Of a stretch of 34,616 nt of DNA, positions 3,429 through 34,616 are shown one piece after another. The position numbers and the translations under genes were made by a program. This stretch comes from a virus: IMG/VR virus record IMGVR_UViG_3300048584_000074, positions 1-34,616 of that record; one strand, 5' to 3'. Within the stretch, counting starts at the first letter, position 1. Every line of letters starts with the position of its first letter. The notes beneath the pieces were generated by a model that searched no databases, was not told the DNA's origin, and saw nothing but the letters and a program-made list of their open reading frames with translations.

Positions 3429-5210
3429 TTATCCTGCTTCGTAATTATCCTCCACCGGGATGCGCAGCCGGTCCACGAGGGAGGTGAAATCTTGGCGCGG
3501 CGAGGGGCCGATGGTCACGGTGGAGACTTGGGTCCGCAGGTCGGTGGACGTCTCTGCCACGGGGGCTTTCATGCTCGCCCATTCGGCGGGCACTTCAGCG
3601 CCCCGGATGGAAATGAAATCCCCAGGAGCGGGGACGGTTTTGGCACTCGGCACCAGAGTCAGTGTGCCTTTGTAGGGCGTCCAATCCTGACGGGCGAAGT
3701 AGTTTGACGCGAGGTTCGGCGGGGCCTCCACGAACTCCGCACGGGTGATGAAGGATGATGATGCAGAGTTCGCCGCCGCGATCACCGCCGCCGCCACCGC
3801 AGCCGGGGCCATGTTGATCGCATCGACTGCCATATTGATTCCATGCCGCACATATTTACGGTATTGAGCATCCTCGAAGCTCTGGCCAGCGACACCGCCA
3901 ACCAACCAACCCGCGAGGGCGCCTGTCGTCGATGAGTAACTGCTCTGGAGGACATTCATTCCAGCATTATTCTCGCCGCTCCCGCGCACGGCGGTGAAAT
4001 CCCCGGTGATGTAGCGCGTCTCTTTCGTCGCGCCGGCCGTTGCCAATTCCGCTGGCGTGAATGCTCCTGTTTCGATCGGCCACCATCCAGTGGCCAGTGA
4101 GCCACCTGATGTCCTCAATGCCAGGCTTGTGGTCGTCATCGACTGGGTGGTCGTCACTGGGGACGATGGCGGCCAGCTGATGCCCGTGAACACCGTAAAA
4201 GTCTGACCGAGTCCCGGCGACATGAAGAACCCCGCTTGCGCCGCCACTGCTGCCTGCAAGCTCGCTACTTTCGGTAGCAACGCCGCCCACGTCAGGGGTA
4301 TCTGCGCCGATGCCGCCGCCGCCGTGATGGATGCCCCCACCGCGTCCACGCTGGCTTGTGCCATCGCCACCGCTTTTTGTGCCGTCGTTAGAGCTTCACT
4401 CACCAACAGATCAGACCGCTCTTGCCCGCTGAGATAGAGGGAGATTTTCCGGTTGGCCTCGGCGGAATCGTCGCCTGCCTTTTGCACGAGGAACTGAATC
4501 ACATCGTCGCCCTGGCGGCGGGCATAGGCGATGGACACGCTGAGTGCCCGCGCTTCGGGGAAGGCGCTCAAGGTGACGTCGGAGGCTTTGTTGGAATCCG
4601 CGTCCAGGTCGATGACCATTTCCCGCGCCGCCTGGCGGGTTTGGAAGCGCAGGGTCGGCGGGCTGGTCGAGTAATCCGCCCGCGTCACGGCATCCGGCAC
4701 CCACTTCATAGAGTCCTCGATCGCTGCGGCGATGGAGGATGAGCGGAAGGCCATTTTGGGCACGGCATAGAACTCGGGAAAATCCGCCGGTGCTTGGAAG
4801 GGCAGGCCGCGTGAAACCCCTTGCGCCATGAATCCTGCAAGCGTCGTGCTAAGGTCTTGCGCAGGCACCGCCACGAAGGCGCGGTCGCCGGTGAGCAGCG
4901 GGGTTTCGGTGAGGCCTTGATAGAAATTGGCGGCTTCGAATTGATAGATCCGCGAGCGGTAGGTGTAGGACCGCTTGACGAGTCCGACGAAGAGCACTTG
5001 CCCCGCGTCGTCCAGCAGCGTCACCCATTGGTTATCGTCCACGATCACCGCCGCCGTCGTCGCCCGTTGGGAAAAGGTCAGCACATCGGGAGCCATCGAC
5101 GCCTGCTTCAGCACCGCGTCCACGATCCCGAGTTGAGCAAGCGAGTAGCTCCGCAGCCCGAGGGCTTTGCCTTCTTCACCCTTGAGGTGATATGGTGGGG
5201 TTCCTAACAT
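3429..5210 (-). CDS. Baseplate hub / tail-tip protein
   Basis: The 593-residue product begins with a segment (ASMAPDVLTFSQRATTAAVIVDDNQWVTLLDDAGQVLFVGLV, around residues 37-80) that reads like the first domain of tail hub proteins, which form a ring at the tail tip. This is followed by beta-rich regions, an Ala-rich helical stretch near residues 270-330, and a C-terminal region with VPAPGDFISIRG and VSTVTIGP that again looks beta-rich. It lies directly after the tape measure gene, with one base between stop and start, where siphophages encode distal tail and hub proteins. No peptidase motif was seen. Confidence 0.55.
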   Translation of the reverse strand: MLGTPPYHLKGEEGKALGLRSYSLAQLGIVDAVLKQASMAPDVLTFSQRATTAAVIVDDNQWVTLLDDAGQVLFVGLVKRSYTYRSRIYQFEAANFYQGLTETPLLTGDRAFVAVPAQDLSTTLAGFMAQGVSRGLPFQAPADFPEFYAVPKMAFRSSSIAAAIEDSMKWVPDAVTRADYSTSPPTLRFQTRQAAREMVIDLDADSNKASDVTLSAFPEARALSVSIAYARRQGDDVIQFLVQKAGDDSAEANRKISLYLSGQERSDLLVSEALTTAQKAVAMAQASVDAVGASITAAAASAQIPLTWAALLPKVASLQAAVAAQAGFFMSPGLGQTFTVFTGISWPPSSPVTTTQSMTTTSLALRTSGGSLATGWWPIETGAFTPAELATAGATKETRYITGDFTAVRGSGENNAGMNVLQSSYSSTTGALAGWLVGGVAGQSFEDAQYRKYVRHGINMAVDAINMAPAAVAAAVIAAANSASSSFITRAEFVEAPPNLASNYFARQDWTPYKGTLTLVPSAKTVPAPGDFISIRGAEVPAEWASMKAPVAETSTDLRTQVSTVTIGPSPRQDFTSLVDRLRIPVEDNYEAG

Positions 5211-5211
5211 G

Positions 5212-6708
5212 TTATCTCAGGCGCGCGAAAATTTGGGAAATTTTTTGATCTTGCACGGCCACCTTCTGACTCAAGGCCCCGATGGTATTGGCGGCATTCG
5301 TCAGCGCCGTGATGATCGCATTGCCCTGGGTGGTTTGGGCGGTAGAGACCGCTTGCACCGCGTTGACAATCGCCTGCGTATCCTGCGGAGTCGGGGCGAG
5401 GGTTTGGACCGCTTGCACCGTCCCGGCGCGTTCGGTCTCGACGGCGGCTTTGACTTCCGTGGCTTTGGCTGTGGCTGCATCTTGAATGATTCCTGCCTCG
5501 ACCTGAATCTGTTGGATGACGGGTGCCGTCGCCGTTGAAAGGATGTTGGGCAGGGTATTAAAAACCTCGTCGAGCCTTGCCTTCGCTATCGGGCTGATTT
5601 TACCTTCAAATTCTTTGTCTGCCTCAGCGATGGCGATCTCCGTTTTTCTTACGGCCCCTTCCACCCCTTGTTTAAATTTTGCTTCAGCCCCCGCTAAAGT
5701 CTCGCTGGCGACTGTGCTGGCGCGTTCGGCGGTAGTGATGGCATCCTTTGTTAACTGGATCGCTTCGTCATCAGCTTTACGAATACCCGCTTTGACTTCG
5801 TCCTGGATGAGCTTTAGCTCACTCTTCGCGTCAGCCTCAGTCTTTAGAGCTTTTTCCGCTTCGGTCTTTGCCAGCAGTAAATTATCGTTCAGTCCTTGGA
5901 TATCCGCCGCAAGTCTAACAGCGATGGCATTGGCCTCCGCTAAGGCCACATCGCCACCATTGAGTTTTGCTAAAGTCACTTCATCTTCCGCCGCGCTCAC
6001 CTCCCCGGCGGATAACTCCGAGCGGAGACCCACCAATCGCTCCATCTTCGCGATCTGTGTATCGAGCGCTAGATTCTCTTTTGCGATGTTCTCCGACTGA
6101 GTGATAGCCACTAGATTTTTTTTACGAAACTCGATGGTCTTGAGAAGCTGAAGCTGAGAGACGCCCGCAGCCTTTTCGGACGTATCCGCCGCTTTTTGGA
6201 GTTTGGACATTTCGCCATAGGCTTTGATCACATCCGCGCTCATGGCCGCAACCCCGGCTGCAATCGCCGCGAATGGATTGCCTGTCGTTGCGAACGTGCT
6301 CAACCCTACCGAGAGGCCGCTTACTGACGTGCTCACCCCTTCAATCACGCCTTTGAGTGGCGCTAATTCCTTTGCGAACGCGCCCCCCTCTGCCGTCGCT
6401 TTGTTAAGTCCTTCTGCGACTTTCCCGAGAAACTCCGCTTTCCCTAGCAGGGCGATGGCTTTGGTTTGTTGCTCTAGCCGTTTAAGGCTTTCGGCGGCTG
6501 GGCCAGCTTTATCCTTCAGGGCACCCGTTTCGTCCGCGAGTTTTTTTTGTGAGGGTGCCGCCTCATCATTCGCGCGTTTCAGATCATCCGTCTGCGTCTC
6601 CACCTTTTTGACAGACTCCTGAGTCTGGTCCAAAGCGGTCGTCACCTCCTCCGCACCCTTGGTGTCGGCGGTGGTCCGCATCCCGATCTCGATGTCCTTG
6701 TCCGCCAT
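5212..6708 (-). CDS. Tail tape measure protein, short
   Basis: The 498-residue protein is largely helical with long heptad-like stretches rich in Ala, Glu and Lys. One hydrophobic segment lies at about residues 122-165 (GVIEGVSTSVSGLSVG to AAIAAGVAAMSADVIKAY). This layout, the position between tail tube and hub genes, and the size (the longest protein of this part of the tail module after the hub) point to the tape measure, which sets tail length and is ejected ahead of DNA. At about 0.15 nm per residue it would span roughly 75 nm, short for a siphophage. No lytic domain is visible. Confidence 0.65.
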   Translation of the reverse strand: MADKDIEIGMRTTADTKGAEEVTTALDQTQESVKKVETQTDDLKRANDEAAPSQKKLADETGALKDKAGPAAESLKRLEQQTKAIALLGKAEFLGKVAEGLNKATAEGGAFAKELAPLKGVIEGVSTSVSGLSVGLSTFATTGNPFAAIAAGVAAMSADVIKAYGEMSKLQKAADTSEKAAGVSQLQLLKTIEFRKKNLVAITQSENIAKENLALDTQIAKMERLVGLRSELSAGEVSAAEDEVTLAKLNGGDVALAEANAIAVRLAADIQGLNDNLLLAKTEAEKALKTEADAKSELKLIQDEVKAGIRKADDEAIQLTKDAITTAERASTVASETLAGAEAKFKQGVEGAVRKTEIAIAEADKEFEGKISPIAKARLDEVFNTLPNILSTATAPVIQQIQVEAGIIQDAATAKATEVKAAVETERAGTVQAVQTLAPTPQDTQAIVNAVQAVSTAQTTQGNAIITALTNAANTIGALSQKVAVQDQKISQIFARLR

Positions 6709-27012: not shown

Positions 27013-29142
27013 ATGACCTGCATCACATCGCTCGACTACGCCTCGCCACTCTGGGAATCCATCCCCGGCGATCACCGGGAAGAACTGCGCCGCATCGTTG
27101 CGGCCATCAGCGAGGCCCCGGCGAGCGGTGTCACCAGGTGGATGCAGCAAACCGCGCCCCAGTTAGGCCTCAGCTACCAAGCGTTTCGCCGGCACTATTA
27201 CAGCATCAAGAATAACGGCGGTGACTGGACGGTCATCATCGACAAGCGAAAGGCACCGGAACACCGCGCCGCCACCGCCCTTGCCAGGCAACCTCACTTC
27301 ATGGCCGCGCTCGCCAAGATTGTCGAAGAGCATCAACGCAACAATCAGGCAGGCTTCCGCGCTCTCCGCCGCCGCTGGGCATCTCGCCGCGTCGCCATCC
27401 CCGGCTATGAGACATGGCCAGGCTGGCCCAAGATCCCGGCTGGCTGGACGGATGGAAACCTCGGGAGGATCGTTAAGGAGCAAACCAACCTCGCCCGCAT
27501 GCGCTCAATCCGCGTAGGGACATCGAGCAAGACCAATATCTATCTCCCCACCGTCATCACCACCCGCGCCAATCTCTGGCCCGGTGCCGTCATCCAGTTG
27601 GACGACGTCTGGCATAAAAATTTCGTGACCCTCGGCAAAAAGCGCGAGGTCGTTAGGGTTCTCGAACTCGGTGCGCTCGACCTCTTTTCCGCCTGCCGTT
27701 TCCACTTTGGAGCCAAGCCACGGCGCAAGCGCGATGGTGGGTCCTACGAAACCATCGGCGGCAGCGATATGAGGATGTTCCTCGCCGGGTTGTTCCACCG
27801 CACCGGCTATTCACCGCAAGGCACGATGCTCATGTCCGAGCATAACACCGCCAAAGTCTCCGAGGATATCGCCAGAATCCTCTACGATGCCACCGGCGGA
27901 ATGATCCGCGTGGACTACCAGCCCATCGAAGGCAAGCAGGCCGCTCTATCAGGCTATTGGGCAGGCAGCGAGGGCGGAAACTTCCGCGCCAAAGCCTGCC
28001 TCGAATCCACCCACAGCCTCATGGCTAACGACCTCGGCGCACTGCCGATGCAGTCCGGCCACAACACCCACGGGCTACAAGGCCCCGTCACCACCGACCG
28101 CATCGCCGCCTACATCCAGCGCATCGTCAAGAGCGTCTTGGAAAAAGTCCCGCACCGCGAACACCTGCTCAAACTGCCCGCCCTGGACTTCCACACCCAG
28201 TTCTATCCGTTTCTTGTGGACTACTATCAGTTTGGTCTCAACGCCCGCACCGATCATGACTTGGAAGCCTGGGAAATGCTCGGTCACGTCGTCAACGAAT
28301 ACACCACCATTCCCGGCAGCGGGCATTTTTTCAGCGAGGATGTTTTCCTCAAGCTGCCTGCACCATCCCAAACGGCCATCCGCCACGCCGCCGCCGCAGA
28401 TCCTCAGTCCTGGAGCCGCCGTCGCAAACTCTCCCCTGGCGAGGTATGGGATAGCAGACGCGACTTCCTGCCGATACCTCCCGTCGTCCTGTGCGACATC
28501 CTCGGCGGCGATCTTGCCCGCGAAGTCACTGCCAGAAAAGGCTTCCTTGAATTCTCCGATCAGGAAATCTCGTGCGATCCGCTCATCTATCAGGCCCGCT
28601 TTTGTTGCGGCCCTCGCCATGGCCGCGAGATCCCCCACGGCGAAAAAATCAAGATGTTCGTCCTCCCTTTTGACGACAAGACCGCCATCGTCGTGGACTC
28701 CAAGGAAAGATATCTCGGCGAGGTGCCGCTCTACCACCGCGTCACTCCCATCGACCCGGATGCCTTCGGTTCCGCCGCGCCGTTTGAAGAGCGTCCCGAG
28801 ATCCGCAGTGAAGCACTCCGCAATGCCGCTGGAGAAAAGCACTCCCGCATCGCAGACATCCTGGAACCCTCCCGCATCATCCATGCAGACCGCGTGCAGG
28901 ATGCTCGGGATCTGCGGGAACATAACCGCCGCGTCGTCACCGGCGCACCCGTCACCCCCGACGAGATCCACGCCGCCCGCATTGCAGCAGGCCAGCAAGG
29001 CCAGCGCACCGCCGCTGCCAACCGCCTGCAAGCCCACGGCGAGGCCACCGACTGGGACACCTCCGACCTCTCCTCCGTCCCTGTCGCATCCACCGCATGG
29101 GATGATCTCCCCGACGACGAACCTCTCCCCGACGCTCTCTAA
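27013..29142 (+). CDS. MuA-like DDE transposase
   Basis: The 709-residue enzyme cuts the phage ends and joins them to target DNA. The catalytic core lies at about residues 190-340: Asp198 in VIQLDDVWH, Glu276 in MLMSEHNTA and Glu331 in CLESTHSLMAN. Spacings of 78 and 55 residues compare with 67 and 56 for MuA D269, D336 and E392, so the third residue fits well. Where most enzymes have a second Asp, this one has Glu276. The N-terminal 150 residues carry HTH-like DNA-binding parts (LGLSYQAFRRHYYSIKNN) and the C-terminal part holds the beta-barrel (FDDKTAIVVDSKERYLGEV). It is followed by the MuB-like gene. Confidence 0.9.
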   Translation: MTCITSLDYASPLWESIPGDHREELRRIVAAISEAPASGVTRWMQQTAPQLGLSYQAFRRHYYSIKNNGGDWTVIIDKRKAPEHRAATALARQPHFMAALAKIVEEHQRNNQAGFRALRRRWASRRVAIPGYETWPGWPKIPAGWTDGNLGRIVKEQTNLARMRSIRVGTSSKTNIYLPTVITTRANLWPGAVIQLDDVWHKNFVTLGKKREVVRVLELGALDLFSACRFHFGAKPRRKRDGGSYETIGGSDMRMFLAGLFHRTGYSPQGTMLMSEHNTAKVSEDIARILYDATGGMIRVDYQPIEGKQAALSGYWAGSEGGNFRAKACLESTHSLMANDLGALPMQSGHNTHGLQGPVTTDRIAAYIQRIVKSVLEKVPHREHLLKLPALDFHTQFYPFLVDYYQFGLNARTDHDLEAWEMLGHVVNEYTTIPGSGHFFSEDVFLKLPAPSQTAIRHAAAADPQSWSRRRKLSPGEVWDSRRDFLPIPPVVLCDILGGDLAREVTARKGFLEFSDQEISCDPLIYQARFCCGPRHGREIPHGEKIKMFVLPFDDKTAIVVDSKERYLGEVPLYHRVTPIDPDAFGSAAPFEERPEIRSEALRNAAGEKHSRIADILEPSRIIHADRVQDARDLREHNRRVVTGAPVTPDEIHAARIAAGQQGQRTAAANRLQAHGEATDWDTSDLSSVPVASTAWDDLPDDEPLPDAL

Positions 29143-29197: not shown

Positions 29198-30244
29198 ATG
29201 TCAACCACCCAGATCGCCCCCGCCGCCAACACAGGAAGCCTTTCAATCTCTGCCGCAGATTTTGAATTGGTGCTCTCCTCCAGTTACCCAGAAGACCAGC
29301 AAGAGACACTCCGCTTCTGGTTCTTCACCGCCAAGGAACACAACTGGGGCCTCAAAAAGCTTCATGCAATGACCGGCCTCTCCACCACCGTCCTTTATCG
29401 ACTCTTCCGTGGCGAGTATCCAGCCGACGCCACCTTATCCATTCAAAAACTTGCCCGCGCCCGCGAGAACTTCCACGAGAACGCAGACAATCCCGAGTTC
29501 ATCCACACATCGCTTGCCGCCCGCCTCTTCGTCATCTTCGACAAGACCCGCGCTCTCCGCAACGTCTCGATCCTGTGGGGCCGCATGGGCATCGGAAAAA
29601 CCGAGTGCATCAGCGAGTACCAACGCCTTAACAACCACGGACGCACACTCGTCGTTAGATTCCCCGCCGGTGCCACCTTCGCGTTTTTCGTATCTCACCT
29701 GGCCCGCGCTTGCGGAGTCGCCACCCGCTCACAATCCGCCTTCGATCAGCGCTCCAAAATCATCAGCGTCCTTTCCGCCGGTCAACGCCTCCTCATCATC
29801 GACGAACTGCACCAGGCATTCCTAACCACCCGCACCGACACCGCCGTAAAATGCTGCGAGCTACTTCGCGAAATCGCCGACTCAGCCAACTGCGGCCTTG
29901 TCCTGGTAGGAACCGAATTGCTCGAAGAAAACTTCTTCCGTGGCCAGCACAAGGACGCTCTCAAGCAGCTCGTGGATCGTGGCACCGTCCAAGTCCCGCT
30001 TCCCTCCAAGGCCACCAAATCGGACTATCAGAAATTTCTTGCAAACTACGGCCTGAAACTTCCAGACCCCGCAGAATTTCCGGAAGCCTCCGACATCCTC
30101 GGCGACATCATCAAATCTGCCGGCCTGCGCAAGCTCACCCTTCACCTCCGCGATGGCGCCGCCTACGCAGCCAAGCGCACTGAAGCCTATACTTGGCAGC
30201 ATTTCGTCTCCGCCTTCGAAGCCATTCAATCTCTCAGCAAATGA
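29198..30244 (+). CDS. MuB-like AAA ATPase, transposition target selector
   Basis: The 348-residue ATPase polymerises on DNA and delivers target DNA to the transposase. An N-terminal HTH (HNWGLKKLHAMTGLSTTVLYRLFRGEYP, about residues 48-75) precedes the AAA domain with Walker A GRMGIGKT (128-135) and Walker B LLIIDE (198-203). A sensor-like VLVGTELLEENFF follows. A small C-terminal helical domain completes the MuB layout. MuB itself has 312 residues, so length fits. It overlaps the start of the next frame by ATGA. Confidence 0.9.
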   Translation: MSTTQIAPAANTGSLSISAADFELVLSSSYPEDQQETLRFWFFTAKEHNWGLKKLHAMTGLSTTVLYRLFRGEYPADATLSIQKLARARENFHENADNPEFIHTSLAARLFVIFDKTRALRNVSILWGRMGIGKTECISEYQRLNNHGRTLVVRFPAGATFAFFVSHLARACGVATRSQSAFDQRSKIISVLSAGQRLLIIDELHQAFLTTRTDTAVKCCELLREIADSANCGLVLVGTELLEENFFRGQHKDALKQLVDRGTVQVPLPSKATKSDYQKFLANYGLKLPDPAEFPEASDILGDIIKSAGLRKLTLHLRDGAAYAAKRTEAYTWQHFVSAFEAIQSLSK

Positions 30245-32490: not shown

Positions 32491-32872
32491 CAGAAACGAT
32501 ATGGAGGGTCGGTCATCAGTCCCTTGTTCGGCTGGGTCAATGCTCCGCTGCTATTGGGAATTTTTGGAATACTTCCCGTGGAAAAGATCGGAGTTCCCTA
32601 CCTACGACATTTGGATCTGCTCGGATGCCGACGATGCGCGAATCTTCCGCCAAGGGTGGGCCGCCCGATGCCGCTCCGCATGGATGCCAATCGAATCCGC
32701 CCCAAAGGACGGCTCTGAAATCATCGTTTATTGCCCGCCCGCGCACGGACTGAATCACATGGCGAGCGTCTGCGCATGGCATGAGGATGCCGGATTCTGC
32801 GTTGACGAACTCCGCGAACCGACTCTCTGGATTCCTCTGCCGAACGATCAAATGGAGGCACGCCGGAAATGA
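32480..32872 (+). CDS. DUF551-like phage protein
   Basis: The 130-residue product has the signature of DUF551-type phage proteins in its second half: WMPIESAPKDGSEIIVYCPP, then a Cys/Trp/His segment (SVCAWHEDAGFCVDEL) and the closing EPTLWIPLPN. This family is widespread in phages and has no known function. The first half is Cys- and aromatic-rich (LRCYWEFLEYFPWKRSEF). Confidence 0.7.
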   Translation: MESNRNDMEGRSSVPCSAGSMLRCYWEFLEYFPWKRSEFPTYDIWICSDADDARIFRQGWAARCRSAWMPIESAPKDGSEIIVYCPPAHGLNHMASVCAWHEDAGFCVDELREPTLWIPLPNDQMEARRK

Positions 32873-32949
32873 AGCTCGAATCCACCAGAAACGTTGTCGG
32901 CGTTGCCTCCCATGCCTTGTTCGGATGCTTTTTGTTGACGGCTGCCCCC

Positions 32950-33163
32950 CTTCAGTGCCATGGTCGCGGCACTGAAAGAGAACCGGCTGACGCCCCGTTC
33001 GGCGCATTTTTTATGCCCGCACGGCCGGAGGCCGCTAAACACAAACGTCGGGTCAATAGGCAGGAATACAATACCCGCAAGGGGAATACTGCCACGGTAG
33101 TTCTCTACCGAGTTGAGGCCCGGCACCTGCGTGGGGTCTCCACGCGCACTACTGAAAGAGAAC
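32950..33163 (+). ncRNA. c4: C4-like antisense RNA leader of icd-ant operon
   Basis: The 293-base stretch after the DUF551-like gene is full of hairpins: TTCAGTGCC/GGCACTGAA (32951-32976), CGGCC-GGA-GGCCG (33022-33034), GGCAG/CTGCC (33059-33093) enclosing CCC-GCAA-GGG, CGGTAG-TTCT-CTACCG (33095-33110) and GCGTGG/CCACGC (33129-33145). A six-T run at 33007 follows a short stem. ACTGAAAGAGAAC occurs exactly twice, at 32971-32983 and over the ribosome site of the next gene at 33151-33163. GTTCTCT in a hairpin at 33100-33106 is complementary to both. In phages P1 and P7 the c4 RNA lies in the leader of icd-ant and blocks its translation by just such pairing. A long open frame crosses this region (32869-33432) but is probably not meaningful. 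Confidence 0.65.
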
Positions 33164-33165
33164 AA

Positions 33166-33432
33166 ATGAACAAAGAGACAGCCGCCCCATCATGGGGCTG
33201 CATCCTCCGTTTGGAGGATGCCATCTACCAGGCCTGCGCCGTTGCTGATCTGGTCATCAGCCGATACCTCGCGACCATTCCCGACGAGGATCAGACACCG
33301 CACCAAGGCCGCGTCTTCGCGGGGCTCTTGACGCTGGAAAGCAAAACATTCGCCGAACTGGAAGCGGCCTTCTCGGAGGTCTCTGCCTACGCCCGGCACC
33401 TGAGAGAACAAAAGGAAGTCCAAACCACATGA
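33166..33432 (+). CDS. Small protein in the icd position
   Basis: The 88-residue product starts MNKETAAPSWGCILRLEDAIYQACAVADLVISRYL. GAAAGAG stands five bases before the ATG, a good ribosome site that is also the putative target of the C4-like RNA. It continues helical (GRVFAGLLTLESKTFAELEAAFSEVSAYARHLREQ) and ends in ATGA overlap with the antirepressor. In P1 and P7 the gene here, icd, inhibits host cell division and is needed for antirepressor translation. Function here is inferred from position and resemblance. Confidence 0.6.
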   Translation: MNKETAAPSWGCILRLEDAIYQACAVADLVISRYLATIPDEDQTPHQGRVFAGLLTLESKTFAELEAAFSEVSAYARHLREQKEVQTT

Positions 33433-34127
33433 AAACTGAAACCAAGAATCCGATCCTCGACCTGCTCTTCGCGGGTCGCCAAATGCGGCTCGTCCCAAGA
33501 GAGCCGGAACCGTGGTTGGTGCTGTCTGACGTGTGCTCCGCTCTCGGGCTGAGCAACCCGTCGATGGTCCTAAAACCGATGCCGGAAAAGTGGCGATCAA
33601 CCCTAAGTATTACTGAGGGTAGATCGGGCCGAAACGCCGACAAAAAACAAGCGAAGCGCGTGACGATCATCAGCCCTGCCGGGGCGATGTTCCTCGCCTT
33701 CCGCAGCCGGAAGCCGGAGGCTCAAGCCTTGGTCGATTGGCTGCTCGAGGACGTGCTCCCGCAGATCGCCAAATACGGCGTGTATGTCGCCGGGGCCGAT
33801 CCCGCCGAACGGTGCTCGCTGCTGTATCACCGCTGGAAGCTGGAACGCGCCACGGAAATCACCACCGCCAATGCCGAATTGGAATCGCGCGGGCTGGTGA
33901 CCATCGCACTCTTCGCGGAGCTGAACCAAGTGGAGCTGCGCGACGTGCTCAGCTTCGCCCGGATCGCCTCGCAAGAGGCAATCGAGGCCGGCGAATCCCG
34001 CACGCGGGTCTATACCCGCAACGGGATGCGCCGCGCCTACAGTGACGCGGTGCTCCGCAACGCGCTCGCCCGCCTGCAACCTCAACTCCCGTGGGCTGAC
34101 GAAACCCCGGCAGCCGCTCAGGGCTAA
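33429..34127 (+). CDS. ant: Phage antirepressor (BRO-N family)
   Basis: The 232-residue product begins with a BRO-N/Ant domain (about residues 12-120): EPEPWLVLSDVCSALGLSNPSMVLKPM, then KRVTIISPAGAMFLAFRSRKPEAQALVDWLLEDVLPQIAKYGVY, which is the family signature. A helical C-terminal part follows. Antirepressors inactivate the repressor and trigger induction. It overlaps the icd-position gene by ATGA and is followed by a strong terminator, so the C4-icd-ant cassette is a complete unit. Confidence 0.8.
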   Translation: MKTETKNPILDLLFAGRQMRLVPREPEPWLVLSDVCSALGLSNPSMVLKPMPEKWRSTLSITEGRSGRNADKKQAKRVTIISPAGAMFLAFRSRKPEAQALVDWLLEDVLPQIAKYGVYVAGADPAERCSLLYHRWKLERATEITTANAELESRGLVTIALFAELNQVELRDVLSFARIASQEAIEAGESRTRVYTRNGMRRAYSDAVLRNALARLQPQLPWADETPAAAQG

Positions 34128-34132
34128 TAACC

Positions 34133-34169
34133 AGCGGCCCGGCTCTCGCAGGGCCGGGCCGCTCTTTTT
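34133..34169 (+). terminator. Rho-independent terminator after antirepressor
   Basis: AGCGGCCCGGC at 34133-34143 pairs perfectly with GCCGGGCCGCT at 34153-34163 around a nine-base loop, followed by CTTTTTG. It lies six bases after the antirepressor stop and closes the operon. Confidence 0.9.
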
Positions 34170-34188
34170 GTCTTCCGAACGCCGAGCT

Positions 34189-34293: not shown

Positions 34294-34616
34294 GCGACAA
34301 AAAGCCACTGAAAGAGACCCTGAAAGAAGCCCTTGATTCCGCCCTTGGCAGCGTCTGGGAAGATGTCTGCGAGGAGTTCGAGCGCGACACCTACGCCGAA
34401 CTTGGCGGATATGACAAAGCCGAACTCCGAATCATCAACGGCACTATCGGTGCGGAATGGTGGCATCAGACCCTCGCCGAACTCGTGGACGGCTTCATGG
34501 AAATTCGCGACGGGAGCGCCGGGGCGGAAGAGGCGGAATGGTGCGAGGCTGTCGCTGCCGACTTCGAAGCGCAGGCCGCCCGAATCCGCGCACACGCTTC
34601 TGATCTTCGGCTCAAC
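34290..34616 (+). CDS. Acidic helical protein, cut by window end
   Basis: The frame starts MSDKKPLKETLKEALDSALG and stays open for 109 residues to the window edge. It is strongly acidic (VWEDVCEEFERDTYAELGG, GFMEIRDGSAGAEEAEW) and helical, of the kind sometimes found among DNA-mimic or host-takeover proteins, but no family is recognised. It shows that the phage or its operon continues beyond 34616. Confidence 0.6.
   Translation, partial: MSDKKPLKETLKEALDSALGSVWEDVCEEFERDTYAELGGYDKAELRIINGTIGAEWWHQTLAELVDGFMEIRDGSAGAEEAEWCEAVAADFEAQAARIRAHASDLRLN

Follow-up and report, generated by a model that had tools for sequence, protein, structure and literature searches.

The closest described counterparts of the locus studied here are small-RNA systems, most of them from phages. 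In P1 and P7, the antisense RNA C4 (Rfam RF01695) represses antirepressor translation from within a cassette arranged in the order a1/b1, c4, a2/b2, icd and ant1, for which Rfam holds a further family, c4-a1b1 (RF03163); the C4 precursor is a substrate of RNase P (Hartmann et al., 1995, as cited in PMC12710915). In Gifsy-1 of Salmonella, the short terminated leader IsrK activates the antirepressor AnrP in trans, by way of a 45-codon ORF that is AUGA-coupled to the antirepressor gene on a read-through mRNA (PMC4825925). The CI RNA of P4, which is compared here solely by its description in that same paper, resembles our locus as a processed antisense RNA lying between complementary copies, seqA and seqC, but differs in being the immunity factor itself and in acting by termination of replication-gene transcription. 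Another RNA, sRNA-Xcc1, was discovered in Xanthomonas campestris as a stable RNA of 88 nt whose ends were mapped (PMC2996969). Together with symE it is part of the commonest integron cassette of Xanthomonas, and publications have dealt with it as an sRNA that acts in trans and is linked to virulence (PMC12444791) or as cargo of vesicles, being found among the vesicle sRNAs of Xylella in work whose Rfam table has C4, isrK and sRNA-Xcc1 near each other (PMC12189769), not as a regulator of antirepressors. In the openly accessible papers that mention sRNA-Xcc1 most often we found no link of it to antirepressors, and an earlier proposal is possible.

In this study, we analysed a linear virus record of 34,616 nucleotides (IMG/VR IMGVR_UViG_3300048584_000074; the whole stretch is called the window below). 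It encodes a portal protein and a head maturation protease, and also the two proteins by which a phage was taken as Mu-like, a MuB-type ATPase (29198-30244, phrog_296, 3.6e-25) and a MuA-type transposase (27013-29142, phrog_310, 7.5e-7), the latter match being weak. The cassette of interest is made up of the following features:

32935-32964, plus strand: candidate sigma-70-like leader promoter (TTGACG, 18 nt, CATGGT), with a transcription start expected near 32971
32951-32976, no strand: perfect 9-bp inverted repeat, TTCAGTGCC, 8 nt, GGCACTGAA, overlapping the candidate -10
32971-32983, plus strand: upstream target copy (a1/b1-like), the exact 13-nt ACTGAAAGAGAAC
32984-33012, plus strand: leader terminator, CGG, CTGACGCCCCGTTCGGCGCA, TTTTTT, terminator-like by scan and aligning with the leader element conserved among siblings
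33047-33132, plus strand: putative antisense RNA of divergent sRNA-Xcc1 type, matching the full RF02221 model (fold z -3.05)
33100-33106, plus strand: hairpin 2 loop region GTTCTCT, complementary to both target copies
33151-33163, plus strand: downstream target copy (a2/b2-like), covering the ribosome-binding site of the 88-codon ORF
33166-33432, plus strand: 88-aa ORF in the icd position, its start codon 2 nt past the target copy, with gene-like codon usage
33429-34127, plus strand: Bro-N antirepressor of 232 aa, its ATG at 33429 overlapping the preceding stop (ATGA)
34133-34163, plus strand: intrinsic operon terminator, 14 pairs followed by CTTTTT

An earlier note, which had read this region as a P1-type C4 cassette in a Mu-like phage, had named the 13-base target repeated exactly, a complementary GTTCTCT in a hairpin, an 88-residue gene in the icd position that is ATGA-coupled to a BRO-N antirepressor, and a closing terminator, and our analysis found each of these parts at the positions given above. 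The target ACTGAAAGAGAAC has 3 matches in the whole window at up to 2 mismatches, where 0.61 are expected, and its pair of copies is the sole direct repeat within 32860-33200. A 13-nt repeat at 180-nt spacing is beyond chance. The third match, a near-copy with 1 mismatch at 34307, falls within an ORF further downstream and was put down to chance. The GTTCTCT loop sits on a CGGTAG/CTACCG hairpin and forms 7 bp with AGAGAAC of the targets, a match that is modest when taken alone (P ~0.024) and that gains its weight because the RNA family described below shows the same pairing. The domain search identifies the 232-aa protein as Bro-N (PF02498, E=1.2e-14, 55.2 bits against a cut-off of 25.6), and the protein matches several PHROG anti-repressor families (phrog_2593, 1.4e-22). 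For the 88-aa ORF, searches of phage proteins, viral contigs, Pfam, PHROGs and NCBIfam gave no significant similarity at the thresholds used, and this absence of detectable similarity to known families is a difference from P1. Close relatives of either protein were not found in the viral contigs. The closest Mu-like relative that we found (L175) has a MuB protein that is 66% identical and is without the cassette; since no close sibling with the cassette was found, the window's own locus offers no co-variation evidence.

The RNA at 33047-33132 belongs with sRNA-Xcc1. In a cmscan search of the leader run at an E-value threshold, it matched RF02221 over the complete model (1-87) with 52.5 bits and E=1.1e-8, which is 0.5 bits short of the Rfam cut-off of 53 bits; at the curated Rfam thresholds the window has no match of any kind, and we therefore call the RNA a divergent sRNA-Xcc1 relative and not a curated member. 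The conserved core AATACAATACCCGNAAGGGGAAT of hairpin 1 is exact at 33065-33087. The minimum free energy fold of the 86 nt, which is that of sRNA-Xcc1 of X. campestris and its relatives, has a closing stem, hairpin 1 with the conserved AATACAATACCCGCAAGGGGAAT, hairpin 2 and a 3' CACC, and scores z = -3.05. For C4 (RF01695) the same search gave no match in the leader at E<=10. This negative result is informative because P1, used as a control, was recovered with 68.8 bits for C4, 51 bits for c4-a1b1 and 35 bits for isrK. Furthermore, all 16 sibling loci checked by cmscan match RF02221, at 65-86 bits, and none matches RF01695. Neither RF03163 (c4-a1b1) nor RF01394 (isrK) was matched in the window leader, the latter being a difference from the IsrK system, which otherwise shares with the window a terminated leader and a small ORF coupled to an antirepressor. 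RF02221 is without a clan in Rfam. We also observed a weak partial match of Methylosinus-1 (RF03108) at 33060-33096 (13.7 bits), by way of the ATACCCGNAAGGGGAA core, and this family may be a relative of sRNA-Xcc1.

The window RNA and P1 C4 nevertheless resemble each other in plan. Both have a closing stem and two hairpins, a hairpin 2 loop that matches the ribosome site and a CACC end, and at the level of the family there is a second pairing stretch 3' of hairpin 2, as in P1, where a2 and b2 are annotated. They differ in that hairpin 1 of the window RNA carries the invariant core and that its closing stem is shorter. The operon order is that of P1 with the same 4-base overlap, that is, a predicted antisense RNA between target copies, a small ORF and an ATGA-coupled antirepressor, a likeness of plan and not of homology. 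Thus the proposal in the earlier note of an immI plan with RNA-based control stands as regards the order, the target copies, the coupling and the match with P1, and is corrected as regards the identity of the RNA, which is not C4 by the covariance-model check. Judged by its sequence, the cassette in the window is divergent but complete; it is weak at the second pairing site, which amounts to ~3 bp, although the sRNA-Xcc1 family has both sites.

The invariant core ATACNATACCCGNAAGGGGAAT was then used as a probe for the family in viral contigs and bacterial genomes, where it occurs in at least 119 and 53 stretches, respectively (at least about 170 loci). Among the 110 loci with a usable start codon, 74 have a perfect complement of at least 7 nt to their own hairpin 2 loop within 24 nt of that start, against 2.3% of swapped pairs. 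When near-identical RNAs were removed, leaving 88 loci, such a match before the downstream start codon was seen in 59 and in about 2% of the swapped controls. These 59 loci have 58 different loop sequences, and in 1518 of their 1711 pairwise combinations at least 3 of 7 positions differ, with every loop still complementary to the target at its own locus. In most cases the match lies on the ribosome-binding site, its end being 7-11 nt ahead of the start codon. The second pairing stretch, 3' of the hairpin, and a site just upstream have a mean match of 6.3 nt compared with 4.3 nt in swaps. We had also ranked own against swapped targets by duplex energy, but this ranking was set aside, since the stretch taken as target ran into the closing strand of the RNA itself, which confounded the comparison. 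The proteins encoded downstream (n=79) include Bro-N (24), KilA-N (11), P22_AR_N (10), Rha (9), AntA (6) and SymE (1) types, and by these domain assignments the targeted neighbour is usually an antirepressor, from at least five unrelated families.

Several individual loci deserve mention. An unannotated RNA of sRNA-Xcc1 type lies directly before ant in two named phages, Haemophilus phage Aaphi23 (1501-1749 of the sequence examined) and Escherichia phage Rac-SA53 (1501-1584). At five loci (L023, L019, L046, L129 and L169) the RNA occurs twice, with different loops where both could be read, and the duplicates are possibly second-immunity or decoy copies. In a Mu-like record (L031, 7248-8165, minus strand) and a Zhongshania genome (L173, 4846-5716, minus strand) three small ORFs follow the RNA, and just downstream of it we saw no recognizable antirepressor. 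The Mu transposase domain PF02914 is present in two other viral records with the RNA. The RNA in a transposable phage is therefore uncommon but not unique, which weakens the suggestion of the earlier note that the pairing had no described counterpart in such phages.

Upstream of the RNA, 39 of 56 loci contain the paired 7-mer a second time, compared with 49 of 3528 swaps (1.4%). In sibling loci this upstream 7-mer is part of a leader element that consists of a promoter, target copies, CGG, an intrinsic terminator, a T run and (A/G)TGCC. By its AGTTGAG the window RNA falls into a second subtype, and in siblings of this subtype the -10 mostly ends 12-16 nt before the upstream target copy. The candidate promoter of the window, TTGACG-18-CATGGT, has the element spacing of most of these siblings and, in keeping with them, ends 12 nt before the upstream paired 7-mer; a strict consensus promoter scan did not report it. 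A leader covariance model built from both subtypes without the window matched most other loci tried; it missed the window at default filters and, with filters off, gave 8 bits and E=1.1, its best match in the window. A sequence model of the second subtype (14 leaders, window excluded) matched 32933-33018 with 14.2 bits and E=0.0011, the next match having E=2, a result that should be weighed as a second attempt made after the mixed model. The mixed model, built solely from sRNA-Xcc1 leaders, also matched the a1b1/isrK leader of P1 (241-318 of the stretch examined) at E=4.1e-6. This match suggests that the C4 and sRNA-Xcc1 systems share a leader element, which would be a hint of shared origin.

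Two further observations concern the leader. The inverted repeat formed by TTCAGTGCC and GGCACTGAA has no second full site in the window, so that its position is what speaks for a role as an operator; it is possibly an operator for the phage repressor, or possibly a hairpin masking the upstream target copy. In three Xanthomonas loci, L130 (RNA 5687-5778, minus strand), L132 (3927-4018, minus strand) and L140 (motif at 4637), an 8-nt match between RNA and leader has been kept, and no match of the RNA was found at the downstream start. Leader pairing is thus retained on its own at these loci, which suggests either a role for leader pairing alone or targets in trans.

Taken together, the loop/target co-variation, the antirepressor neighbours and the recurring leader target argue that sRNA-Xcc1 works like C4, holding down antirepressor translation by antisense pairing, and that a short terminated leader is its likely decoy. 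For the window, we consider it likely that the cassette is an RNA-based immunity system controlling the Bro-N antirepressor. The parts, their order and pairing, the family-wide co-variation, the duplicated target in a terminated leader and the coupling overlap are the observations from which we infer how it is transcribed, processed, coupled and repressed, and how its decoy would act. A promoter near 32935-32964 would give rise to a leader RNA of ~42 nt, which begins with a target copy and would mostly end at the T run at 33007-33012. Read-through would produce a long RNA, from which a stable antisense RNA of ~85 nt (33047 to ~33130) would be cut, RNase P probably making its 5' end at the tRNA-like stem with 3' CACC. 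The loop of hairpin 2 would then pair with AGAGAAC before the 88-codon ORF and block ribosome entry, and via the ATGA overlap this block would be passed on to the antirepressor, so that the phage repressor would remain active in the lysogen. The terminated leader, which carries the same target, could titrate the antisense RNA and thereby free the antirepressor when leader transcription rises; IsrK is the nearest tested precedent for such a decoy step.

It is also possible, though we regard it as distinctly less likely, that the antisense RNA acts mainly on transcription, in the manner of the P4 CI RNA, and that the block of translation is secondary. Pairing with both copies would in this case make transcription stop at the leader terminator and also within the 88-codon ORF, which would be left untranslated, much as CI RNA is described to cause termination by pairing with seqA upstream and seqC downstream (PMC4825925). 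The upstream copies of sibling loci directly precede an intrinsic terminator, and the three Xanthomonas loci, matched in the leader and not at the start codon, would be consistent with this idea. However, the downstream copy lies on the ribosome-binding site, 7-11 nt before the start, in most phage loci, which points to translation, and the conserved CGG past the upstream copy could form a competing hairpin of just 3-4 bp.

An unlikely alternative to translational control of the antirepressor is that the cassette has decayed, RNA and target having been inherited while the window copy no longer controls its gene. The single good pairing site, the score just under the Rfam cut-off and the weak leader match with the mixed model would fit such a history. 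Against this, the loop still fits both target copies without a mismatch along 7 nt, and the copies themselves are identical along 13 nt. Codon usage is good in the 88-codon ORF as well as in the antirepressor gene, and their overlap is intact.

It is very improbable that 32869-33432 encodes one 187-aa protein and that the hairpins are incidental. No stop codon interrupts its 187 codons, and in the upstream part of the frame the codon bias is weakly positive, at 0.13 bits per codon, but this value is ambiguous, since the median for real genes is 0.50 and off-frame values go up to 0.18; the 88-codon ORF reaches 0.46. Of 85 related loci, only 15 keep the equivalent frame open through the RNA, and the downstream start shares the phase of that frame in 20 of 68, near one third. 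The 187-aa product had no family or homologue in the protein searches named above, and neither the exact conservation of the RNA core nor the full-model match to RF02221 would be expected on this reading. The 187-codon frame is most likely a chance open frame. Least probable of all is a true P1-type C4 RNA, for which the P1-like operon order and three-part fold with its second-hairpin pairing loop and CACC end would speak, but on which the C4 model is silent despite a working control and siblings that are uniformly RF02221.

The results presented here indicate that what appears to be new lies at the level of the family, namely sRNA-Xcc1 as a C4-like regulator of neighbouring antirepressors. 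We think it likely that sRNA-Xcc1 is at root a widespread phage immunity RNA, with a three-part circuit of decoy leader, processed antisense RNA and antirepressor target, whose pairing specificity changes fast, which has been plugged onto unrelated antirepressor folds and carried into bacterial integrons, and of which the Xanthomonas loci examined would have kept the leader pairing alone. An orphan Rfam family would thereby gain a concrete, testable job. Pipelines annotate sRNA-Xcc1 in Xanthomonas, Xylella and Pasteurellaceae, and its targets have been sought in papers among host genes or in plants, while the co-varying loop suggests that its first target is the adjoining gene. RNA-based control of lysogeny would then extend beyond P1, P7 and a few enterobacterial prophages to many phages of proteobacteria, Mu-like phages included, and since the loops differ between loci, many separate RNA immunity groups would be expected among them.
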